Part shown: piece after piece, positions 29,804-34,308 of the stretch | How the letters are laid out: each line of letters opens with the position of its first letter | How positions within the stretch are numbered: position 1 is the first letter of the stretch | Source of the DNA: Rhodoferax ferrireducens T118 | Lineage (GTDB): Bacteria; Pseudomonadota; Gammaproteobacteria; Burkholderiales; Burkholderiaceae_C | Length of the DNA: 64,000 nucleotides | NCBI RefSeq assembly: GCF_000013605.1 | Contig: NC_007908.1 | Span: forward strand, 3,534,001 to 3,598,000 | Direction: 5' to 3' | The notes under the pieces: generated by a model | Seen by the model: only the letters and a program-made list of their open reading frames with translations | The model's database searches: none | What the model was told of the DNA's origin: nothing | Program-made: the position numbers and the translations under genes

Positions 29804-30421
29804 TCAGAGCAGCCCGGCCGCCGCCACCGCCTTGCGCCAGGCCGCGAGCTTGCGCTCAAAACTCCAGCTGGCATTGGCCGGGCTGGTTGAGGGCAACTTG
29901 AGCACCGGCAGGCCCAAGGTGGCGGTGTATTTGGCGTGCCGAAAGCTCTCGCCGCCGTTGTGGGCAATCAGCTGAAGTTGCGGGCAGCGAAGCCTGAGTC
30001 CGCTGAAATCGTTGACCTGTGGCTGGCGAATGGCCGTGTCCAGACTGCCTTCGCGCTCGCAGGAGGCATAGACATCCCAAATACCAAGACCTTGCGCCAG
30101 CAGCCAGGCGCTACGTTCTTGATAGCTAGCTGCGCTTATTCCACGGGGGCTGGAAGGGAAAATAGCTTGAAGAATTCGCCAAAACTGGTTTTGCGGGTGG
30201 GCGTAATACTGCTGCCGCGCCAGCGAGGTGATGCTTGGGAAACTGCCCAACACCAGCAGCCTGGTGTTCTCGGAGACGAGGGGTGGCAAGCCGAACAGGC
30301 GTGGCGTTTGGGGCGAGATGGCAGCGCTCTGTTGGTCTTTGACCATCAGTCCGGGAGATGGGGATTCAATGGGATCGTCGGGCCGTGTGACGGCTAGAAC
30401 ATTTGTGGACTGGTATTGCAC
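29804..30421 (-). CDS. hypoxanthine/uracil-DNA glycosylase family protein
   Basis: About 205 residues of the uracil-DNA-glycosylase superfamily, closest in motifs to bacterial DNA-deoxyinosine glycosylase: LVLGSFPS, QYYAHPQNQFWRIL, GLGIWDVYASCEREGSLD, HNGGESF and LPSTSPANA. It would remove deaminated bases in base-excision repair. GTG at 30421 overlaps the upstream gene; an ATG at 30346 is an alternative. Repeat copy D is embedded in the middle and encodes ISAASYQ. Confidence 0.85.
   Translation of the reverse strand: MQYQSTNVLAVTRPDDPIESPSPGLMVKDQQSAAISPQTPRLFGLPPLVSENTRLLVLGSFPSITSLARQQYYAHPQNQFWRILQAIFPSSPRGISAASYQERSAWLLAQGLGIWDVYASCEREGSLDTAIRQPQVNDFSGLRLRCPQLQLIAHNGGESFRHAKYTATLGLPVLKLPSTSPANASWSFERKLAAWRKAVAAAGLL
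30119..30170 (+). repeat. dispersed repeat, copy D (inside DNA glycosylase gene)
   Basis: Plus strand has TTGATAGCTAGCTGCGCTTA then TTCCACGGGGGCTGGAAGGG and AAAATAGCTTGAAG. Antisense to the glycosylase gene and read through in frame. Confidence 0.7.
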
Positions 30422-31248
30422 ACTTGCGCGAGTTTGGTTTTTTTGACAAATGCTGGTTTTACGCTGCGCCGCTCAGCCTGCTGAAGCCAGGCAAACAGGC
30501 CTGGATCACGCGCTTCTACTTGCGCTTCCACCTCTTGCAGACTGGCGAGGTAGGGCGCCACGGGTCCATAGTAATCCGTTTGAGGTCCAATGGCCCTGAA
30601 GGCGATGTTCATGCGCATCAGCGAGCGCGCCAGGGGGCGCTCCATGGCGGCGTACCAGTGGCTGATGTCATTGGCGCGGCTGTAGGCGTACATCTGGCGA
30701 TAGAGCGTCAGCAGAACTTGCGAGGCGTCATCGCGCCTCACGCCCGGGGACACCGCGTGCGTCTGCACCGCCGTCACGCCTGCGAGCCGGGTACCCCGCT
30801 GGCGCCGATAGTCACAGCGCAGCATGAGCCGGCTGACCTCTGCGGCGCGGGCCGGCATGGGTAGTTTTGAACCGTCGGCAGAGGTGATGCAATGGCTTTG
30901 AAACGGGAACCGCTGGTCAACATCCGGGCGAACCAGGCGAACATAACCCACCAACTCATCCTGCGAGTCGAAGGCATAAAAATGTTCTGCGGCGTCGTCG
31001 TGTTCGTCGGACTCCACACCATCCGGGTAGTCGTCGGGAGAGAGGTAACTGCACTCCACGCAATAAACCTGGTACCTGAGTTCCATGGCGCTTCTAAAAG
31101 CACGATCCTGGACGCGCAGGCCACGCTGATCCCAATGCGTGGTGCCAACAGATGGCTTCATCAAACGCGCCGCAATGTCAATGTCTCGTGTGGGGTGATC
31201 AAGTCTTCCAAATCGATGGTCTTTGGTCTCAAAACGATGTGTCTTCAT
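30394..31248 (-). CDS. PEP-CTERM/exosortase-associated acyltransferase 1
   Basis: 284-residue protein of the exosortase-associated acyltransferase family, related to autoinducer/N-acyl amino acid synthases. Typical stretches are RYQVYCVECSYLSPDDYPDG, DEHDDAAEHFYAFDS, GYVRLVRPD, FPFQSHC, EVSRLMLRCDYRR, LTLYRQMYAYSRAN and HWYAAMERPLARSLMRM. The family's substrate is not known. It is divergent from the ThiF-like gene. A second member lies at 33583-34308; the two share most of these motifs, but this one has about 30 extra residues at each end. Confidence 0.88.
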   Translation of the reverse strand: MKTHRFETKDHRFGRLDHPTRDIDIAARLMKPSVGTTHWDQRGLRVQDRAFRSAMELRYQVYCVECSYLSPDDYPDGVESDEHDDAAEHFYAFDSQDELVGYVRLVRPDVDQRFPFQSHCITSADGSKLPMPARAAEVSRLMLRCDYRRQRGTRLAGVTAVQTHAVSPGVRRDDASQVLLTLYRQMYAYSRANDISHWYAAMERPLARSLMRMNIAFRAIGPQTDYYGPVAPYLASLQEVEAQVEARDPGLFAWLQQAERRSVKPAFVKKTKLAQVCNTSPQMF

Positions 31249-31493
31249 GGCGTCGCGTGTCAGTAAAAGGATTTGATTCGCGGTGATCCTAAGCCTGATT
31301 GCTTAAAATATGGGCGGGGTTTACAGACTGTTTCGAGTAGCGCACTATTCCAACTGTTTTTTTAAATATGAAGTGACACACTGAGGCCGATTTCGTCACA
31401 GGTTCGTTACAGGTTCATTCGAATACGAGGGTCGTCTGCGCGCTTGGTAAAGTGAAAAAGTATTGGTTTTCTTTGACATGGGAGAGTTGACAA
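31249..31493. promoter_or_regulatory. divergent region with tandem CAGGTTC repeat
   Basis: 245 bases between acyltransferase 1 and the ThiF-like gene. It contains two tandem copies of ACAGGTTC (around 31397-31417) separated by about ten bases, a possible operator. The thiF-side gene has GGGAGAG before its ATG. No unambiguous -35/-10 pair was assigned. Confidence 0.4.
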
Positions 31494-32339
31494 ATGACAA
31501 ACGCTTTTGATTACGAAACATCGGTCACCCGAAATAGCGGCTACATCTCGGCCGAGACGCAAGCAAAGATAAGAAAGACCAGACTACTGATCGCTGGCTG
31601 CGGAATTGGCAGCAGCCCCGCAGTTTGTGCAGCCCGCATGGGCTTCGAAAATTTTGTCTTGGTGGACGGCGATGTGGTCGACGCGCACAACCTGAATCGC
31701 CAGTTCTACGACTTTGCCGATATTGGCAAGCCCAAGGTCGCGGCGCTGAAAGACAAGATCCTGAGAATCAACCCAGAGGCCAAGGTAGAGGCCATTGAGG
31801 CCTATCTGGATGCAGACAACACGCAAGAGATTGTTGGCAAGGCAGATATCGTTTTTGATACGGTTGACTTCCTTGACTTGCCAGCGATCCTGCGCTTGCA
31901 CGACAGTGCGAAGAAACACAAGGCACACATTTTTACAGCCTTGAGCGTGGGCTTTGGCGCATTGGTCTGGTATTTCCCGGCGGGTTCCAGCCTGACATTG
32001 ACCGACATCCTGGCCCCGGACATCGCGGGGTCAAGCGCGGGTGGTACTGTCCCGAGCTACGCCGACGTTTTCGCATCGTTCATACAGCGCCTTGCGCCAC
32101 ATCTCGATGCCGAGGTCGTCGAGCAGGTCAGCAAGGTACTCACCATGATGAAGGATGGCAAGCCCTGCCCGGCCTCGCAAGTTGCCGTCGGCAGCTTTGC
32201 GATCGGCGCCATGGCCATGTCCATGATGCACGACTTGCTGGCGGGCAATCCCATACCCTCGGCCCCCAAATTGGTCCTCCACAGCTTCAGGAGTTATCAG
32301 ACCCAGATAGTGGATGTATCGACCAGCCAGCCGGACTGA
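31494..32339 (+). CDS. ThiF/E1-like adenylyltransferase-fold protein
   Basis: 281 residues of the ThiF/MoeB/E1 superfamily, which adenylate a C-terminal carboxylate of a carrier or peptide. The nucleotide loop is GCGIGSS (35-41), the acidic strand LVDGD (56-60), NLNRQ (66-70) and GKPK (78-81) with the expected Lys. VFDTVDFLD stands at the catalytic Asp region. It lacks the CxxC zinc pairs of MoeB/ThiF, and no sulfurtransferase Cys is evident. The C-terminal half is not assigned. It lies between two PEP-CTERM-associated acyltransferases, so it may activate an amino acid or peptide for acylation; inference only. Confidence 0.85.
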   Translation: MTNAFDYETSVTRNSGYISAETQAKIRKTRLLIAGCGIGSSPAVCAARMGFENFVLVDGDVVDAHNLNRQFYDFADIGKPKVAALKDKILRINPEAKVEAIEAYLDADNTQEIVGKADIVFDTVDFLDLPAILRLHDSAKKHKAHIFTALSVGFGALVWYFPAGSSLTLTDILAPDIAGSSAGGTVPSYADVFASFIQRLAPHLDAEVVEQVSKVLTMMKDGKPCPASQVAVGSFAIGAMAMSMMHDLLAGNPIPSAPKLVLHSFRSYQTQIVDVSTSQPD

Positions 32340-32556
32340 GACCGTCAAAGCGAATTTGGGGTCCTTAGCACGCTGTGTCTCTGTCGGATATTTTTACAAC
32401 TGCCTGAACGGGTGATAAAGCGAAACGCCTTACCTGTCATCTAAGTGTTTGATTTTAAATAAAAAGCAAGAACTTATCGAAGCTCGGCACGGTATGTGCT
32501 TTATTGAATTTAACAGCGGCCGCTTTCTGGTACTGTTACTTTTAAGGAGTTCGAAG

Positions 32557-33450
32557 ATGAAGATGCATATCAAAGCGCTGGCCGTCGCTGCAATGACTGC
32601 GGTGGCGTCGCTGGCAGCAACAGCCGCCCCGCTGGATACTTTGGCGGGCCCTTACAACTGGAAGCTTCAGGGCACGACCAGTGAGTACAGCCCGGTGGCC
32701 TACGGTACTACCCTCGCAGAATCAACGTGGGGCATCGGTCAAATCACCAACATAAACAAAACCAACGGTGATCCTGCTTGGACCAGTGGGCTGGGCGGTG
32801 ATTACCTCTACTTCATGCTCTACGGCATCGCCGACCTCTCGGTCATCCCGGTAAGCTCAGGCTTTAATATCTTCAACGTAGGTTGTACCGGTGGTGTGGG
32901 TTGTGATGGAAAGATTCACGTGGACATCTATCGCATGTCATCACCAATTTCAAGCATTCTCCAGCAGGATCCTGATAATCGTCTCGGCTTCAATGGCTTC
33001 AATGGCCTGACCAACGCCGCGGGCGCCAGCCTGTATTTGGGACTTGAGTTGATGCCGGGCAAAGTGACCGTTGATGATCCTTCGACTCTTGTTGATGAAA
33101 GAACTGCGACGCTGTTCCAGAATGCAAACGCCAATACGCTTCCAACAACGGGTGCCGGTACGTTCTTTGCTGAAGCCACCAGCGGGTCCGGCATGGCCCA
33201 ATGGAATAGCAATGGTTTTGCGCTACCTGGTGGTCTTTTTGCGGATTTCGACTCAAACTTCACACTGAAGCCCAACCTTGTGGCGGCTGGCGGTGCGTGC
33301 CCAAATGGTTCCCTGCCTGATCAGTGTTTCCTCGGACTGATCAACGACCCGGTTCAAAGCAACGCGATCCCTGAACCAGGCAGCTTGGCTTTGGTTGGCC
33401 TCGCATTGGCTGCATTTGGTGTGATCCGTCGCCGGGACAACAAGAAATAA
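32557..33450 (+). CDS. PEP-CTERM sorting-domain protein
   Basis: 297-residue exported protein with a signal peptide ending around ATAAP and a C-terminal PEP-CTERM signal IPEPGSLALVGLALAAFGV followed by IRRRDNKK. Exosortase would cleave this tag, and such proteins usually end up in the extracellular matrix or on the surface. The middle region resembles no named domain; two Cys pairs are visible (GCTGGVGC, and ACPNGSLPDQC). AAGGAG seven bases before the ATG fixes the start. A strong terminator follows. No exosortase gene is in the window. Confidence 0.92.
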   Translation: MKMHIKALAVAAMTAVASLAATAAPLDTLAGPYNWKLQGTTSEYSPVAYGTTLAESTWGIGQITNINKTNGDPAWTSGLGGDYLYFMLYGIADLSVIPVSSGFNIFNVGCTGGVGCDGKIHVDIYRMSSPISSILQQDPDNRLGFNGFNGLTNAAGASLYLGLELMPGKVTVDDPSTLVDERTATLFQNANANTLPTTGAGTFFAEATSGSGMAQWNSNGFALPGGLFADFDSNFTLKPNLVAAGGACPNGSLPDQCFLGLINDPVQSNAIPEPGSLALVGLALAAFGVIRRRDNKK

Positions 33451-33470
33451 GCTCCAAAGCTACCCCCCAA

Positions 33471-33503
33471 AAACTGCCTGGTTGAAGCCAGGCAGTTTTT
33501 TTT
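33471..33503 (+). terminator. rho-independent terminator after PEP-CTERM gene
   Basis: Perfect stem CTGCCTGG (33474-33481) with CCAGGCAG (33488-33495), loop TTGAAG, then eight T. The A-run before the stem means it may act on both strands, also ending transcription of the convergent acyltransferase gene. Confidence 0.85.
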
Positions 33504-33582
33504 GTTTTTGGAGACTTTGGATTTGGAGTCTTTGGAAATAGCCGTCCCGGACAGTCGCGGAATCCGGATCAAACACCCGAGA

Positions 33583-34308
33583 TCAGACGTCCATATTTTC
33601 CGGCTTTTGCATCCAGGCCATCAGCGCCGGATTTCTCTGCTCAAGATGAGCCTCCAGCTCATGCAGAGCGCCAAGGTAAGGTGCCACCACACCGTAATAG
33701 TCGCTCGGCGGTCCGATCTGCCGAAAGGCAAAATTCATCTGGTTCAAGGCGCGGGCCAAAAGACGCTCCATGGCCGCGTACCAGTAATGAACACCGTGGG
33801 CGAGGCTGAAGGCGTACATCTGACGGTACAGACTCAACAGAATCTGGGGCGAATGGTCGCGCAGTTCATGTACGACCCGCGCCGGGTCTTCGTCGACCGT
33901 GACCCCCTCCAGCACATCGCCACGCCGGCGCCGGTAGTCGCTGCGCACCATCAGCCGGCTAATCTCGGCCGCCTGCGAGGGCGGCGCCAGCGCGGCACCC
34001 TCCAGCAAATCGCTGCAATGACTTTGAAACGGAAAAGACTGTGTCAGGTCAGGCGGCACCAGACGCACATAGCCCACCAACTCACGGCGCAAATTGAAGG
34101 CGCAGAAATGCGCCGACGCGGCGTCGTATTCGTCTATTTCGCAGCCGTCCGGGTAATTGGCAGCAGGCAAAAAGCCGCGTTCCAGACAGTAGACCTGAAA
34201 CCGCAGTTCAAACACCCGTTGCATCAGGGCGTTGTCTCGACCCTGAATGACCTCACAGCTGTGAAACAGGGGGGCAAACTCCGCGTGATCGATCAATGAG
34301 GTGGTCAT
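33583..34308 (-). CDS. PEP-CTERM/exosortase-associated acyltransferase 2
   Basis: 241 residues, same family as acyltransferase 1. Shared motifs are FQVYCLERGFLP, YPDGCEIDEYDAASAHFCAF, ELVGYVRLVPPD, FPFQSHC, EISRLMVRSDYRRRRG, LSLYRQMYAFSLAHG, HYWYAAMERLLARALNQM and DYYGVVAPYL. AGGA lies about seven bases before the ATG. It converges on the PEP-CTERM gene. Presence of two copies around a ThiF gene suggests different substrates or duplication. Confidence 0.88.
   Translation of the reverse strand: MTTSLIDHAEFAPLFHSCEVIQGRDNALMQRVFELRFQVYCLERGFLPAANYPDGCEIDEYDAASAHFCAFNLRRELVGYVRLVPPDLTQSFPFQSHCSDLLEGAALAPPSQAAEISRLMVRSDYRRRRGDVLEGVTVDEDPARVVHELRDHSPQILLSLYRQMYAFSLAHGVHYWYAAMERLLARALNQMNFAFRQIGPPSDYYGVVAPYLGALHELEAHLEQRNPALMAWMQKPENMDV

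Follow-up and report, generated by a model that had tools for sequence, protein, structure and literature searches.

A ThiF-like gene between two N-acyl amino acid synthase-type acyltransferases of Rhodoferax ferrireducens T118 looks like part of a variant synthase-ThiF lipid pathway

Here we analyse a stretch of 64,000 nucleotides, hereafter the window, from Rhodoferax ferrireducens T118 (contig NC_007908.1, positions 3,534,001 to 3,598,000), and within it a four-gene cassette in which two N-acyl amino acid synthase-type acyltransferases, termed AT1 and AT2, flank a ThiF/E1-like adenylating enzyme and a PEP-CTERM surface protein. The cassette looks like a variant of the known synthase-ThiF lipid pathway. 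We favour, with a probability of about 0.55, a role in lipid biosynthesis, namely, action of the synthases, followed by adenylation by ThiF and by cyclisation, most likely to a saturated oxazolone. This proposal is carried by the recurrence of the pairing: a survey for co-occurrence beyond this strain, put forward in an earlier, sequence-only reading of the window, found a synthase within about 3 kb of a ThiF of the same clade, termed clade A, in all 19 other loci (17 genomes), with no gene noticed in between in 17 of them. The refuting outcome named in that reading, a pairing confined to this strain, thus did not come about.

Layout of the cassette

The gene positions reported earlier were confirmed, and the order is AT1 (-), ThiF (+), PEP-CTERM (+) and AT2 (-). 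In what follows, G-numbers denote genomes and L-numbers loci; G000 is the window genome, and G047 a relative of the same genus, whose contig is L019 and which has all four genes in the same order. The features are as follows.

30394..31248, minus strand: AT1, N-acyl amino acid synthase-type acyltransferase (TIGR03694/PF13444/FeeM-like), 284 aa, AT1 lineage, by profile scores and tree
31494..32339, plus strand: ThiF/E1-like adenylating enzyme, 281 aa, clade A, by PF00899 match, tree and residues
32166..32168, plus strand: Cys225 codon in a P-C-P motif (mostly PCPA), invariant in clade A by alignment
32485..32500, plus strand: sigma-54-like -24/-12 box CGGCACGGTATGTGCT, 56 bp upstream of the PEP-CTERM ATG, two mismatches to consensus
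32557..33450, plus strand: PEP-CTERM surface protein, 297 aa, signal-peptide-like start (by eye)
33367..33447, plus strand: PEP-CTERM sorting tail IPEPGSLALVGLALAAFGVIRRRDNKK, PF07589, 26.2 bits
33472..33503, no strand assigned: terminator-like hairpin and T-run (by eye) in the gap between the PEP-CTERM gene and AT2, conserved in G047
33583..34308, minus strand: AT2, N-acyl amino acid synthase-type acyltransferase (TIGR03694), 241 aa, AT2 lineage, putative catalytic Glu115

A pathway encoded by a single operon is ruled out, as the four genes lie on both strands. For the PEP-CTERM gene, the list of open reading frames gives a TTG start at 32449; the ATG at 32557 has AGGAG seven bases upstream.

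Two acyltransferases of separate lineages

The arrangement described in the sequence-only reading, in which two exosortase-associated acyltransferases flank a ThiF-like and a PEP-CTERM gene, is borne out by matches to TIGR03694, PF00899 and PF07589. AT1 and AT2 score 257.5 and 271.9 bits against TIGR03694 (exosort_acyl), more than two-fold above its cut-off of 111.95, and are the only TIGR03694 genes of the window genome at E 1e-10. Both also match PF13444 and FeeM, which upholds their proposed relationship to N-acyl amino acid synthases; the genome holds a third PF13444 gene (L001). Residues E115, S117 and R118 (AT2 numbering), which form an E-x-SR motif, are identical in 40 of 40 homologues. 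The conserved glutamate of this motif is thought to be catalytic in the superfamily, and Glu115 of AT2 is presumably the equivalent of Glu95 of FeeM. In Nas354, according to the excerpted text, activity was lost when Glu103 was changed (PMC4897644).

In a tree of 40 acyltransferases, a group with support of 95/94 contains 14 of 15 ThiF-linked synthases, all ten that are linked to the ligase described below, and that of G052, which lies on a cut contig; 14 other rows, including the ThiF-linked L027 and L040, fall outside. AT1 and AT2 are separate lineages inside this group, that of AT1 comprising seven rows with 100/100 support. The neighbours of AT2 are from G044 and G056 (ligase type), and those of AT1 from G052 (nothing seen beside it) and G006 (ligase type). 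A single origin of the ThiF-linked synthases is not supported, given that they are intermixed with the ligase-linked ones in this tree, which has long branches for L027, L026, L059 and one L023 copy.

The ThiF-like enzyme belongs to an unnamed clade

The window ThiF matches PF00899 at 112 bits, but for none of the 20 NCBIfam families listed for it, among them ThiF, MoeB, TcdA and fusions, does it reach the cut-off. First, among the sulfur-carrier adenylyltransferase families, it scores 115.6 bits for NF006395 (cut-off 159), 85.1 for TIGR02356 (275) and 66.7 for TIGR02355 (377). Second, it scores 46.6 bits for the TcdA family NF011696, with a cut-off of 304. Third, it scores 107 bits for NF006077 (266), 68 for NF011424 (1170) and 41.6 for NF005901 (476), families that we call oxazolone-type on account of their printed names (Rv1355c being TrzS) and of an oxidase that matches NF011424 and NF005901.

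ThiF and MoeB carry two CxxC zinc pairs. The cysteines of the window protein are Cys36, Cys45 and Cys225, with no CxxC pair, and together with the curated cut-offs this rules out a classical ThiF, MoeB or TcdA assignment. Activation of a ubiquitin-like or sulfur-carrier protein encoded elsewhere, which would be the classical E1 role and would draw on the fold and residues common to the window protein, ThiF and MoeB, is thus very improbable, the more so as two more E1-like genes lie elsewhere in the genome.

Clade A is recovered as a separate ThiF clade with support of 99/96, its placement relative to MoeB and TcdA being unsure in the same tree. R13, D58, D60, N66, N68, R69, Q70, K81 and D122 are identical in all 29 clade A rows of the alignment, and so is Cys225, which is present at all 20 loci compared, that of the window among them (in L032, in a fragment). 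Protein-database sources label members of the clade as ThiF or molybdopterin/thiamine adenylyltransferase. Based on these results, clade A is an unnamed ThiF clade that extends across several phyla.

Recurrence of the synthase-ThiF pairing

The pairing was followed in two sets of genomes. First, a scan of one genome per species, which used an alignment of 23 homologues and required exact short peptides, so that its counts are lower bounds, gave at least 14 loci in 13 genomes (L019-L032). An acyltransferase of the same superfamily lies close to ThiF in all 14, and no gene was noticed between the two in 13; in L020 they are 2.5 kb apart, with other reading frames in between. The synthases of L019-L027 are TIGR03694-like (those of L026 and L027 weakly, with confirmation by Pfam). 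The remaining partners are of other types, namely, two FeeM-type enzymes with a sub-threshold PilZ match in L028 (Bacteriovorax), FeeM-type enzymes in L029 (Kiritimatiellae) and L032, and, in L030 and L031, FeeM-type enzymes that match TPR weakly; one Planctomycetota genome contributes both L031 and L032. Second, a search among 294 relatives of the L031 genome found matches in at least six; two were known already, and the other four provided five new loci (L116-L120), in four of which an acyltransferase abuts ThiF, that of L117 being about 3 kb off.

A telling gene row is that of L118 (5339-9092), where an AMP-binding enzyme (PF00501, 234 bits), an acyl carrier protein (ACP; PF00550), an acyltransferase and ThiF are consecutive on one strand. 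The acyltransferase is TIGR03694-like by a self-built profile (213 bits) and matches PF13444 at 41 bits, and we take the AMP-binding enzyme to be a fatty-acyl-AMP ligase. This row suggests an order of acyl activation, loading of a carrier, N-acylation and then ThiF. L118 has another FeeM-type gene at 1342-2298, and overall resembles a compact and complete pathway.

Among relatives of the window genome, and across its class, the clade is rare. Clade A ThiF was found in two of 198 relatives, the window genome and G047, at more than 500 bits, with 12 others matching at 76-84 bits; among 369 genomes of the class it was found in at least one, the window's own, with 17 other matches at 91-116 bits. 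The counts for the class and for the L031 relatives are lower bounds, as these searches scored some first-look candidates per genome. This rarity, and the location of the cassette genes on different strands, are what one would expect of independent genes brought together by chance or hitch-hiking in a neighbourhood rich in PEP-CTERM genes. However, the pairing is found again in unrelated genomes and phyla, there with synthases of different types, and the genes are often a few bases apart or overlap. Such an explanation is hence already largely refuted and retains next to no probability.

Two side observations concern these loci. FeeM-type synthases beside clade A ThiF in L028 (1304-3818), L030, L031 and L119 have PilZ-like or TPR-like C-terminal regions, all below the Pfam cut-offs, hinting at possible control by cyclic di-GMP or by a partner. 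In L032 (7282-8814), ThiF is broken over several frames and its FeeM neighbour is open.

The proposed pathway and the fate of the adenylate

In the published pathways, as excerpted, synthase-paired ThiF homologues cyclise N-acyl amino acids in an ATP-dependent step (PMC10404671, PMC12856293), and the E1-like enzymes of known function adenylate carboxylates of peptides or N-acyl amino acids. Since ThiF homologues elsewhere cyclise N-acyl amino acids, the enzyme of the window most likely acts after, and not before, acylation. The sequence-only reading had assigned carboxylate activation to ThiF and acyl transfer to the acyltransferases; both roles fit this precedent, and to them we add the probable order.

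The pathway would consist of three steps. First, AT1 and AT2, perhaps with different substrate preferences, would each acylate an amino acid at its amino group, with acyl-ACP (or acyl-CoA) as donor of the fatty acyl chain, as their family suggests. Second, the ThiF-like enzyme would bind ATP and adenylate the free carboxylate of the N-acyl amino acid, to which the conserved pairing, the residues and the precedent all point. Third, and least certain, intramolecular attack on the activated carboxylate, with departure of AMP, would close a ring, most likely that of a saturated 2-alkyl-5-oxazolone. The PEP-CTERM surface protein, with a sigma-54-like promoter of its own and presumably sorted by an exosortase encoded elsewhere, would often accompany the cassette, the enzyme pair being independent of it.

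A saturated product is proposed because the desaturating oxidase of other systems was not found. The published pathways have, as excerpted, a flavin oxidase of the nitroreductase superfamily beside or fused to ThiF (PMC10404671, PMC12856293, PMC12479983). A hidden Markov model (HMM) built from the oxidases of ten relatives gave no match, adjacent or fused, in the window, L019-L032 or L116-L120; the ten were chosen by eye and match the model by construction, and three of three submitted to Pfam gave PF00881. Using one relative's oxidase as query (E 1e-5) against 14 clade A genomes, nothing was found in ten, including G000 and G047.

Several observations weigh against this proposal. The other four of these 14 genomes do have an oxidase match elsewhere (G200, G202 and G204 clear, G199 marginal), the three clear ones each with a ThiF-like gene of its own close by. 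The genome of L026 (Caenimonas sp. SL110), too, has a second ThiF-like gene with an oxidase away from the clade A locus. PF00881 genes occur in all 14, six in G000 (none in the window) and five in G047 outside the locus, and thus a distant, unlinked oxidase is possible. Clade A is not nested among the oxidase-associated ThiF proteins, so that the fate of its adenylate may differ. Simple cyclisation leaves the invariant Cys225 unexplained. Lastly, producers of stieleriacine, kyonggic and thalassotalic acids gave no acyl-oxazolones despite ThiF in their clusters, according to the excerpted report (PMC12479983).

Some of these observations fit an alternative in which ThiF would serve ligation rather than cyclisation, the adenylated N-acyl amino acid being held as a thioester on Cys225, or handed on, and coupled to an amine, which could be that of another amino acid, of a polyamine or sugar amine, or of a protein, for example the PEP-CTERM cargo. 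Cys225 is kept throughout the clade, other phyla included, at a position where AclA has a gap; on chemical grounds, the saturated product would, without an oxidase, be a reactive acylating species; and congeners have a PaaK-like AMP-ligase at the same site. Nevertheless, no conserved gene for supply or transfer of an amine was noticed beside ThiF, where no systematic search was made, and the PEP-CTERM tail is not a constant companion (see below). We therefore consider ligation plausible but unlikely.

The oxidase is frequent around a second set of ThiF proteins, which we refer to as group B, found in 12 relatives (L007-L018) with 31-35% identity to the window protein. Group B as a clade of its own is ruled out, since its members are mixed with ThiF-oxidase fusions in the tree. 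For NF006077 (PRK08223), L013 and L040 score 431 and 427 bits, well above the cut-off that the window ThiF misses. A nitroreductase-like frame lies within 1.5 kb in ten of the 12 loci, by eye, with Pfam in agreement for three of the ten; by the tests made, an acyltransferase lies within this distance in one of the 12 (L007, FeeM-type), and the group B ThiF of L040 is near a TIGR03694 gene. A PEP-CTERM tail was seen in four of the 12 (L008, L009, L012, L015) and a Wza-like tail of exopolysaccharide (EPS) export in six, mostly by eye. These loci hint at an oxazolone-type module in EPS loci, a combination on which we found no paper, the search for oxazolone with exosortase giving one genome-mining paper. 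In the window genome, a 107-aa nitroreductase-like frame, short for a whole enzyme, lies at L063 7778-8101 (G000:C2, about 902.8 kb) among molybdenum hydroxylase-like neighbours (by eye).

A PaaK-like ligase takes the place of ThiF in congeners

The TIGR03694 cut-off is exceeded in 27 of the 198 relatives. Two of them, G044 (L091) and G056 (L092), share the site of the window, namely, a GspE-like gene, a spermidine-synthase-like gene, AT1, AT2 and a TatD-type gene, and in both ThiF is replaced between AT1 and AT2 by a protein of about 481 residues together with other PEP-CTERM genes (the labels GspE-like and spermidine-synthase-like, as well as epimerase and Wzb/Wza-like below, were given by eye and recall). 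This protein has no Pfam match in the two copies tested, its matches to PaaK/FlxY-type proteins are weak, and a sequence search bearing on its fold reached no better than E 0.025. Its AlphaFold2 model (predicted local distance difference test, pLDDT, of 81.6) has the PaaK fold, with a Foldseek value of 2.7e-17 to PaaK1, and it is by this fold match that we identify it as a probable PaaK-like AMP-ligase.

The ligase is present in 11 of 35 genomes searched, counting as present G044, G194 and G150, each with one stop inside the match, and in ten of these genomes no more than about 0.3 kb separates it from a TIGR03694 gene. The exception is G202 (L103), whose ligase lacks a synthase within 1.5 kb, which counts against its pairing with synthases. 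No ligase match was found in the window or in L019-L032. In G006 (L094 3143-9572), AT1, a PEP-CTERM gene, the ligase and AT2 lie inside an EPS-type locus with epimerase-like and Wzb/Wza-like flanks; as the same set occupies the window's site in G044 and G056, it has changed place in the history of the genus. A PEP-CTERM protein of the window's type also adjoins the ligase in L106 (E 2e-34).

The swap alone fits either of two interpretations: the ligase could have its counterpart in ThiF, and act after the synthase, or in the acyl-activating enzyme of L118, and act before it. By the latter, ThiF would itself activate the fatty acid for the synthases, standing in for the ligase as supplier of the acyl donor. 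The exchange between AT1 and AT2 at one site agrees with this, and so does the split of the 27 genomes, taken at one locus each and within 1.5 kb (second copies, as in G180, being left out): two have a clade A ThiF, ten the ligase, one a group B ThiF (G139, L040) and 14 none of the three, some of these 14 near contig ends; ThiF and the ligase together occur in none. However, in L118 an AMP-binding enzyme and an ACP already stand next to ThiF; a clade A ThiF and the ligase coexist, at separate places, in G202, from which L024 comes; and, in the cited excerpts, E1-like enzymes whose function is known act on peptide or N-acyl amino acid carboxylates. A role of ThiF in donor supply is therefore doubtful.

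It is tempting to combine the former interpretation with ligation. An oxidase-less clade A ThiF would then carry the N-acyl-aminoacyl group as a thioester on Cys225, in the manner of an E1, and pass it to the amine of an acceptor, be this a small molecule, a polysaccharide or a surface protein, and the PaaK-like AMP-ligase would do the same step in congeners, as a non-orthologous displacement in a conserved synthase/PEP-CTERM cassette. We regard this as rather unlikely.

As for significance, the function of PEP-CTERM/exosortase-linked N-acyl amino acid synthases has been called unclear (PMC4897644), and disruption of one of them in a methanotroph altered polysaccharide-band formation (PMC11072679), both according to excerpts. 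The cassette suggests that N-acyl amino acids are not the end product of these synthases, one lineage of which is accompanied by a carboxylate-activating enzyme of either of two unrelated folds, E1-like ThiF or PaaK-like ligase. This gives metabolite searches a concrete target, N-acyl amino acids in activated or cyclised form, and a natural comparison is offered by congeners in which the enzyme at one site has been swapped.

The PEP-CTERM protein, its promoter and the exosortase

The sorting tail exceeds the PF07589 cut-off of 20.7 bits and the genome has an exosortase, by which the protein belongs to the PEP-CTERM family. As stated in the sequence-only reading, no exosortase lies near the cassette: the single PF09721 match of the genome, at C2:691077 inside an EPS-type locus, is 2.9 Mb away, and no reading frame picked in the 37 kb around it matched the window's acyltransferases or ThiF.

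By tail pattern, a PEP-CTERM protein lies near ThiF in at least six of ten Pseudomonadota loci (the window, L019, L020, L021, L023 and L025, out of the window and L019-L027). Among the four without, L024 ends 0.3 kb past ThiF. In L028-L032 the pattern matched two L031 frames alone, which were discarded as chance. Modification of a protein, the second possibility raised by the sequence-only reading, is not supported by these counts. Two acyltransferases are present in five of the six PEP-CTERM-bearing loci, all except L020. Seven of 13 clade A ThiF genomes (the window's left out; several are metagenome-assembled genomes) have no exosortase match. Given these absences, the ThiF-synthase pair probably extends beyond loci linked to PEP-CTERM, and judging from gene neighbourhoods it does not seem to need a PEP-CTERM protein.

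The sigma-54-like box CGGCACGGTATGTGCT has two mismatches to what we take to be the -24/-12 consensus, and it is identical in G047 inside a diverged spacer; five of 500 shuffles of the upstream region gave an equally good box. Matches with up to three mismatches number 134 across the window, below the chance expectation of 170, and the assignment hence rests on position and conservation. Boxes with 0-2 mismatches precede seven of 11 PEP-CTERM genes tested (L021 left out), namely, those of the window, L019, L020, L023, L025, L091 and L092, with perfect ones in L020 and L023; the other four have three or four mismatches. A sigma-54 box for the whole cassette was rejected, as six ThiF and acyltransferase upstream regions gave four to eight mismatches or lacked the required core.

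Comparison with known systems

Our literature search found no paper on the combination of exosortase, acyltransferase and ThiF, and the papers found on N-acyl amino acid synthases with ThiF all deal, in their excerpts, with oxidase-containing pathways. E1-like families were surveyed by Burroughs, Iyer and Aravind, who may also have noted such neighbourhoods. PEP-CTERM/exosortase-linked N-acyl amino acid synthases are attributed by citing papers to Craig et al. 2011; the cassette resembles them in its TIGR03694 scores, the adjacent PEP-CTERM gene and an exosortase in the genome, but differs in lying 2.9 Mb from the exosortase/EPS locus and in carrying ThiF. In a network analysis, as excerpted, many ThiF genes lie beside an acyltransferase, an oxidase or both (PMC12856293), and that data set may contain ThiF genes with acyltransferase neighbours alone, possibly including clade A.

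On the side of ThiF, the nearest solved relative is AclA of Tenacibaculum discolor (PDB 9EGB), which is gapped opposite Cys225 when the two are aligned and for which a search by name found no account of function. Group B (NF006077/PRK08223) ThiF proteins are near oxidase, PEP-CTERM or EPS-export-like genes, and near a synthase in L007 and L040.

The N-acyl dehydrotyrosine clusters of Stieleria, Massilia kyonggiensis and Thalassotalea share with the cassette a synthase and a putative ThiF-like cyclase, and that of S. maiorica also a PEP-CTERM gene and several (four) synthase genes; unlike the cassette, these clusters carry a nitroreductase-family oxidase, and in Stieleria also a methyltransferase (excerpts of PMC12479983, PMC7293339). 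OxzAB, TyzACB and TrzAS, as far as the excerpts describe them, link an N-acyl amino acid synthase to a ThiF-like enzyme that activates N-acyl amino acids, as we propose for the cassette, which differs from them in its separate ThiF clade, its lack of a linked or fused flavin oxidase, its two different synthases and its PEP-CTERM gene (PMC10404671, PMC12856293).

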